A stretch of DNA of 64,000 nt from Natrinema gari JCM 14663 (lineage in GTDB: Archaea; Halobacteriota; Halobacteria; Halobacteriales; Natrialbaceae), in assembly GCF_000337175.1 (NCBI RefSeq), contig NZ_AOIJ01000061.1, positions 150,651 to 214,650 of the forward strand. Reading direction: 5' to 3'. Shown here one piece after another: positions 5,381-6,039 of the stretch; position 1 is the stretch's first letter; every line of letters starts with the position of its first letter. The notes beneath the pieces were generated by a model. It saw only the letters and a program-made list of their open reading frames with translations, was not told where the DNA came from and ran no database searches. The translations under genes were made by a program, and so were the position numbers.

Positions 5381-5670
5381 CGTTGGGCGAGTGCTGACTG
5401 CGAGCGACTGCCAACACGATTCGGTGGCACTGAAATAACGGCTCGAGAGTGCATCTCGAACTCGGTATTCCTCGCAATGGCTATCGGATTCCTCGTGTTG
5501 TGGTATGCGGAAGGTAGGTGGGACGCTCGCACCACTTCGGACTGTTCGGCCGATGGCTGAGTGAGGCGTACGTCACCCGCTCGAGGGGGGAACCGATCCG
5601 CCCAACGGACGGGACTCGCTTTCACGGAAGTAACAGTAGATATAAGTTAGTATAGGACAACGATTAGAAC
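5381..5670. other. Gap upstream of a folded element
   Basis: No gene recognised. Short frames on both strands lack domain signatures. Confidence 0.35.
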
Positions 5671-5743
5671 GGAAGCGGGTCTCCAGAAGCAGGGGACGTA
5701 TCGAAACGTCCCGGGTGCTGGAACCACCCGAGACTTCGCTTCC
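5671..5743 (+). ncRNA. Candidate structured RNA, three-way junction
   Basis: The sequence folds on paper into a closed three-way junction. The outer stem pairs GGAAGCG (5671-5677) with CGCTTCC (5737-5743) and continues as GTCTC (5679-5683) with GAGAC (5730-5734). Inside are two adjacent hairpins: GGGACGT/ACGTCCC (5693-5699 with 5706-5712) around loop ATCGAA, and GGGTG/CACCC (5713-5717 with 5725-5729) around a seven-base loop. A third GC-rich hairpin CCCCG/CGGGG follows at 5747-5759. No protein frame covers it convincingly. It may be a non-coding RNA, a leader element or the palindromic remnant of a mobile element; strand is assigned arbitrarily because the pairing is symmetric. Confidence 0.45.
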
Positions 5744-5871
5744 AAACCCCGGCGCGGGGATTGCAAGCATGATTGCGTACATTCTACCGGGATATAAACG
5801 TCCCGCACGACAGCAGAATCGCCCGACGCGAGTAGCTGTGATGTTAGCTCGGCGTGCGAGCGGTGGTTGCG

Positions 5872-6039
5872 ATGGGTAGCGACCGGGCGGCGAGTGACGA
5901 CGCCGCGTCGTCGGCACCGCCCGACTGTCCGCGCTGTGGGCAGCGGATCGCGTTCCTCACCGTGTCCGGCCCGATGACGGCGTCGGTCAGTCCCTGTGGC
6001 TGTTCGGTGCCGCCCGCGCTCGTCCACCGCGAGGACTAG
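5872..6039 (+). CDS. Small CPxCG zinc-binding protein
   Basis: A 55-residue protein with one clear zinc knuckle, DCPRCGQRIAF (residues 18-28), and a second pair in SPCGCSV near residue 43-47. Many haloarchaeal proteins of this size carry paired CPxCG-type motifs; most are uncharacterised. An in-frame ATG at 5854 would add six residues; ATG 5872 (MGSDRAAS) is chosen because the acidic/serine-rich leader is typical. It sits next to, and points towards, the convergent Tat-exported protein gene. Function unknown. Confidence 0.55.
   Translation: MGSDRAASDDAASSAPPDCPRCGQRIAFLTVSGPMTASVSPCGCSVPPALVHRED

Follow-up and report, generated by a model that had tools for sequence, protein, structure and literature searches.

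A covarying leader RNA upstream of a small basic-peptide ORF and zinc-finger microprotein genes in Halobacteria

The locus in Natrinema gari

The window, a stretch of 64,000 nucleotides from Natrinema gari JCM 14663 (contig NZ_AOIJ01000061.1), contains a three-way junction (P1-P3) followed by a hairpin (P4), both situated 5' of a small basic-peptide ORF that overlaps a CPxCG zinc-finger microprotein gene (Table 1). The MFE of 5671-5780 is -50.9 kcal/mol against a mean of -36.4 (sd 4.0) for 200 shuffled sequences (z -3.66), and as low a fold was obtained in 2 of the 200. The outer stem P1 pairs 5671-5683 with 5730-5743 with one bulge; this stem, the adjoining hairpins of seven and five pairs and the CCCCG/CGGGG hairpin are all present in the MFE fold as described in an earlier sequence-only reading. 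An additional stem between the linker and the ORF, P5, is found in the MFE, yet it is not kept across copies in an alignment by eye and was discarded.

Table 1. Positions in the window of the leader, its promoter and the two genes behind it
Feature	Position	Strand	Basis
TATA-like box, TATAAG in CAGTAGATATAAGT; probable promoter of the leader RNA	5641..5646	+	
P1 5' strand, outer stem of the three-way junction; probable 5' end of the RNA	5671..5683	+	fold; pair changes in A9
P2 hairpin, GGGACGU/ACGUCCC; seven pairs, 5693-5699/5706-5712	5693..5712	+	fold; pair changes in A9
P3 hairpin, GGGUG/CACCC; five pairs, 5713-5717/5725-5729	5713..5729	+	fold; pair changes in A9
P1 3' strand, common to P1 and the alternative helix	5730..5743	+	fold, covariation, linker complementarity, in silico blocking
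P4 hairpin, CCCCG/CGGGG in the window; arms 5747-5751/5755-5759	5747..5759	+	pair changes in A3 and A4
Linker GCAAGC just 5' of the AUG; candidate anti-P1 strand, complement of P1 GCUU.C	5763..5768	+	
Small basic-peptide ORF, unannotated, MIAYILPGYKRPARQQNRPTRVAVMLARRASGGCDG	5769..5879	+	frame without stops; stop overlaps next start
P6 hairpin, CGGGA/UCCCG with loop UAUAAACG, within the small ORF	5788..5805	+	
CPxCG zinc-finger microprotein gene	5872..6039	+	start overlaps small ORF by 8 nt; GGUGGU upstream

The same reading had found no credible protein frame, which is correct for the junction but not for the interval as a whole, where the conserved small ORF begins at 5769. It had also recognised no known riboswitch or ribozyme motif. 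The leader in the window and 15 representative loci gave no Rfam 15 gathering match; the sole gathering match within the window is a tRNA elsewhere, and other matches are below threshold. The CPxCG gene has no Pfam or NCBIfam match.

The first T of the TATA box lies 30 nt 5' of the first G of P1. Of 179 copies 155 contain a TATA in range, at this distance in 145, and 24 contain none. The usual archaeal spacing from TATA box to start would put the transcript start at or near P1. Because the box lies 30 nt before P1 the RNA probably starts there, its 5' end being P1, at or next to 5671. From P1 to the AUG the distance is 80-120 nt (median 98, 177 copies).

Copies and distribution

A 181-base query gave matches in 27 of 61 genomes including its own, all but one of them from the genus Natrinema. 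Nine matches are in the own genome. The 51 copies that were aligned are conserved from the TATA element across the junction, P4, the AUG and a strongly conserved 38-nt stretch; alignments A1 and A2 took 37 and 31 of these copies, near-duplicates and damaged or poorly aligned copies being excluded.

The dispersed, multi-copy occurrence and the inverted repeats are what an insertion-sequence end or a miniature mobile element would give, an origin that had been suggested from the sequence. It is contradicted by the degree of identity, since the seven other own-genome copies among the matches listed are 72-81% identical to the query, with no recent near-identical copy among them, whereas identity reaches 92 and 98% for the top matches from two sister species. 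It is contradicted too by the conservation running from the promoter-like element into the ORFs, by covariation and by the diversity of the neighbours, and we regard a mobile origin as extremely improbable. Viral spread was likewise rejected, as the window query had no phage-record match and two exact-pattern scans of viral contigs were empty.

Among 391 genomes of Halobacteria the model R1 has matches in 71, and 62 of these belong to Natrialbaceae. Weak R1 matches outside this family have the same layout with different sequences, and three of them (L088, L091 and L097) looked spurious. A second model, R2, comprises junction, linker and AUG. At E<=0.01 it has matches in 132 of the 391 genomes, from 54 of 86 genera, with rough E-values and with weak matches included, of which a few are expected by chance. 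At 1e-4 a match was kept in 27 of 28 genomes chosen from its matches, and most of the extra R2 matches carry the usual small ORF. A sample of the phylum gave matches in 9 of 196 genomes, all from the own order, the non-matching genomes being counted together whatever their class.

Copy numbers in the first R1 and R2 searches of the 391 genomes are lower bounds (no more than 8 and 9 candidates scored per genome, respectively). Fuller scoring of 22 chosen relatives gave 24-32 copies in six and 1-10 in the others; the own genome has 10 strong copies and one weak. Copies are also found on plasmids, in Haladaptatus 5' of genes annotated as SWIM zinc finger family protein, and in Halalkalicoccus jeotgali. 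On the Haladaptatus halobius plasmid NZ_CP085339.1 DNA resembling the leader with its SWIM gene occurs at up to 27 places, of which R2 scores five as leaders.

Covariation of the leader

Three alignments, all fitted to the model, a procedure that favours the structure, gave changes on both sides of 21 of 34 pairs in A3 (98 copies; score 0.186 against 0.096 shuffled), 18 of 34 in A4 (81 copies; 0.201 against 0.103) and 14 of 18 in the class-wide A9 (79 chosen copies; 0.312 against 0.151), where 94.3% of cells pair. Compensatory changes in homologues, whose absence would have spoken against the fold, are present above every shuffle: none of 500 reaches any of five whole-structure measures in A3, A4 or A9. 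A chance fold is ruled out by this result together with the MFE of shuffled sequences, and the earlier judgement that the structure is too regular for chance stands on the z of -3.66, the 51 aligned relatives and the 179 parsed copies as well. The leader is under selection as RNA.

The class-wide copies of A9 show both-side changes in all seven pairs of P1, in five of the six modelled pairs of P2 and in two of five in P3, in which 100% of cells are paired and which is nearly invariant in Natrialbaceae. All seven modelled pairs of P4 have both-side changes in A3 and A4, with only 73 and 79% of cells paired. G-U and A-C cells number 246 and 258 overall, 122 of the A-C cells coming from P4, and 58 and 9 in P1 alone; the near-equal totals speak against a simple strand argument.

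P6 lies within the ORF, its end 38 nt from the AUG in 173 of 177 copies. The third pair changes from G-C to A-U on both sides in 22 cells of A3 and 15 of A4, replacing Gly-Pro by Arg-Leu, so that the RNA is here kept more strictly than the peptide; Lys10, also within P6, is AAA in 162 of 166 copies. In the divergent copies L365, L369, L376, L380, L386 and L361 P6-like hairpins of unrelated sequence were seen by eye, seemingly about 18-20 nt after the AUG.

The loop of P6 in Natrinema, GATATAAAC, looks TATA-like and could be taken for a second promoter serving the zinc-finger gene. This is hardly credible, since the loop sequence changes between copies (GACAAAAAGG in others) while the stem persists, there as CGAGA/UCUCG, and a second TATA box was rejected.

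The small ORF and the genes behind the leader

Frame 0 of the small ORF is free of stops over 20 codons in all 166 unique copies, while the other two frames have a stop in 38 and 129. Arg14 and Arg18 are conserved with variable third bases. By BLOSUM score frame 0 is favoured downstream of P6 and, slightly, upstream of it; over P6 itself and over the 20 codons taken together it is not. In three named plasmid copies the annotated CDS starts at the AUG after the linker.

In 179 copies parsed by script the ORF stops where a zinc-finger-like ORF begins in 146, and the overlap is 4 or 8 nt in 113 of these. Two of the remaining copies have no AUG in place and 31 are uncoupled, a number that includes some found coupled by an earlier parse, and at least one of the 146 is mis-picked (L030, a spurious ORF, which the earlier parse shows coupled to a CPxCG gene). 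Of the three origins offered in the earlier reading (small RNA, leader, insertion-sequence end) this result, together with the compensatory changes, supports a leader belonging to the CPxCG gene at 5872.

The class of P6 and peptide matches the class of zinc finger wherever both were assigned. Using our own class names, 177 copies gave 110 of YK/HK with type I and 40 of QKG with type II, none being crossed and 27 unassigned or of other classes. Co-evolution would explain this agreement, and so would descent of two linked operon lineages.

A strict motif test covered 79 chosen copies and allowed two ORFs per leader against one per control. For Natrialbaceae, 37 of 39 copies pass by their coupled second ORF. 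Among the 40 divergent copies, which include a few weak Natrialbaceae matches, 21 pass (14 by the first ORF, 7 by the second), and 11 of 303 neighbouring-gene controls pass (4/152 and 7/151). Of the 19 divergent leaders that fail, ten have by our reading one CxxC in the first ORF and two are without an AUG in place.

The zinc fingers vary in type and comprise CPxCG..PCGC, C-x2-C..HW..C-x2-C, SWIM and CRNCG forms. None of the scanned zinc-finger ORFs reaches a Pfam or NCBIfam cut-off, the SWIM names being taken from plasmid annotation, and the zinc-finger alignment, used in a PDB profile search, yielded weak, short zinc-motif matches only. In the genus g8 (L319, L342-L344) the second gene encodes about 112 amino acids with, by our reading, a HalOD1-like N-terminal part followed by CPxCG..PCGC.

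In the own genome nine of ten CPxCG homologues are preceded by the leader. The tenth homologue (G000:C63:14183-14323, L299) has a promoter-like element, CAATAGATATAAGT, without leader or small ORF. The tenth strong leader copy of this genome has no zinc-finger ORF that was found downstream. One subtype has leader and small ORF (RHKRLARQSVRS...) and no zinc-finger ORF that was found (L331, L303, L333-L335, L339 and L340); L331, its one copy in the own genome, is C63:70034-70149 on the minus strand, and in the subtype a conserved stretch follows.

A common neighbouring gene was looked for and rejected, as the largest cluster among 303 neighbours had six members. This cluster is a methyltransferase-like gene downstream of L043, L016, L114, L175, L225 and L273, perhaps of restriction type. 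Among the matches listed for 79 downstream neighbours no mobile or defence family is common to them, defence models matching single genes or a few.

A possible alternative helix near the start codon

The bases just 5' of the AUG are complementary to the P1 3' strand and change along with P1, giving new complementary pairs such as GGUCUUC/GAAGACC, GGUUGUC/GACAACC, GGGUUUC/GAAACCC and GGUCUUU/AAAGACC. For 27 distinct P1 3' strands, four of them of the GCTTCC class, the mean longest Watson-Crick run with the own linker is 5.19 against 3.76 (sd 0.21) with permuted linkers, a mean reached by 0 of 5000 permutations when relatedness is left out of the model. Runs of at least five occur in 19 of the 27, compared with 6.7 on average after permutation.

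In a fixed register the alternative helix exceeds shuffles on three of five measures, the score being reached by 1 of 500, while the two other measures were reached by 256 and 192 of 500. Many Natrialbaceae linkers are complementary in part only; among the copies with a GCTTCC strand the linker is GTTGCC in 28 of 163.

P1 is formed in the MFE of 59 of 77 copies and absent in 18. Blocking the P1 5' strand in silico, which costs 6.4 kcal/mol in the median, let the 3' strand pair with the linker by at least four pairs in 63 of the 77; the unpaired bases from -8 to the AUG then fell from a median of 6 to 3 of 11. One of seven printed examples, L379, has a helix complementary in sequence that is not formed in this calculation. 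Because the linker complements the P1 3' strand and changes with it, two mutually exclusive helices are suggested, as in a translational riboswitch. The leader has the layout of a translational switch, with the switching itself predicted.

Interpretation

We consider it probable that the fold forms the 5' leader of an mRNA with two genes, transcribed from the TATA box at 5641, in which a switch between P1 and linker sets the translation of coupled ORFs; leader and fold as such are well supported. Transcription would start at or next to 5671, and the leader, to judge by covariation, would fold into the P1-closed junction followed by P4. A small basic peptide, expected from its coding signature, would be translated from 5769, and ribosomes ending at 5879 may restart on the overlapping start at 5872. 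Paired with the 5'-terminal nucleotides of the RNA, the P1 3' strand would leave the surroundings of the AUG more open; paired with the linker, it would close them in part. Stabilisation of either helix would then set translation, and Zn2+ or the zinc-finger products are candidate signals. Because many copies per genome share one layout and often precede small zinc-finger genes, a set of zinc-finger microproteins is probably regulated jointly by the leader.

A constitutive structured 5' UTR, its 5' end protected by the junction and its start codon framed for initiation by P4 and P6 with no switching, is a somewhat unlikely alternative. The stability of P1, with the cost of the blocked state given above, and the fixed AUG-P6 spacing are in keeping with it, but the linker changes with the P1 3' strand across sequence types, which a passive UTR does not need.

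It is clearly less likely that a separate small RNA, about 90 nt long and with its own promoter, acts in trans, the downstream ORFs having a start of their own. The TATA box at a fixed distance and the compact, stable fold suit such an RNA, whereas covariation extends past the junction to P4 and P6, the latter inside the ORF, and the linker is tied to the AUG. A second promoter, moreover, is not conserved, because the TATA-like P6 loop is CAAAAAG in other copies.

The proposed switching leader of a two-gene mRNA has partial counterparts in described systems. In Halobacterium salinarum the Bp4/OE2447F and brz-brb pairs similarly combine a small basic protein and a CPxCG protein on one mRNA, bp4 lying upstream of OE2447F with an overlap of 7 bp (PMC3184054, as far as consulted). 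The window likewise has a small basic ORF overlapping a CPxCG gene, with a shared mRNA predicted. The basic gene is downstream in brz-brb, unlike in the window, and the start site about 134 nt upstream of OE2447F leaves by our arithmetic almost no leader before bp4. A structured leader is not mentioned for either pair in the parts of PMC3184054 consulted. HTH_10, the domain that would mark a linked Bat-type regulator, is absent from the 25 families listed for the 79 downstream neighbours.

With translational riboswitches the leader shares its 5' position, a conserved junction and a common strand able to pair near the start codon. That it is a conserved structured 5' leader is seen from covariation and the position of the TATA box, its transcription being predicted. 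It differs from known riboswitches in having no Rfam match, often many copies per genome, and zinc-finger targets. The fluoride riboswitch of Thermococcus kodakarensis is named in a 2021 paper, according to which a fluoride riboswitch was the only natural one demonstrated by experiment in archaea (PMC8241225, in the part consulted).

Ribosomal-protein leader motifs, one of them in Halobacteria, are also covarying 5' leaders, possibly bound by the product (PMC7247131, in the part consulted), but the present leader precedes zinc-finger microprotein genes in the copies examined. These genes resemble the small one-domain C(P)XCG proteins of Haloferax volcanii (PMC11241148), for which 49 candidate zinc-finger microproteins are given in the parts consulted (PMC11241148; PMC12186497). 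The terms operon, upstream, leader, overlap and basic protein are absent from the main text of PMC11241148. A description of this leader was not found in the open-licence papers searched. That a small basic ORF and a CPxCG gene go together is known from Halobacterium salinarum; the leader RNA appears to be new.

A far-reaching form of the proposal would make the leader a class-wide archaeal riboswitch class with up to about 30 copies per genome, sensing zinc or bound by zinc-finger products and setting the translation of unrelated zinc-finger microproteins, by way of the peptide ORF in Natrialbaceae and without such an intermediate elsewhere. We think this unlikely.

Haloarchaea have a large class of zinc-finger microproteins of which little is understood. 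The finding reveals an unannotated peptide gene 5' of the zinc-finger gene in most of the Natrialbaceae copies examined, and a covarying leader before many zinc-finger genes ties these together and predicts their control, a prediction testable with existing haloarchaeal reporters.
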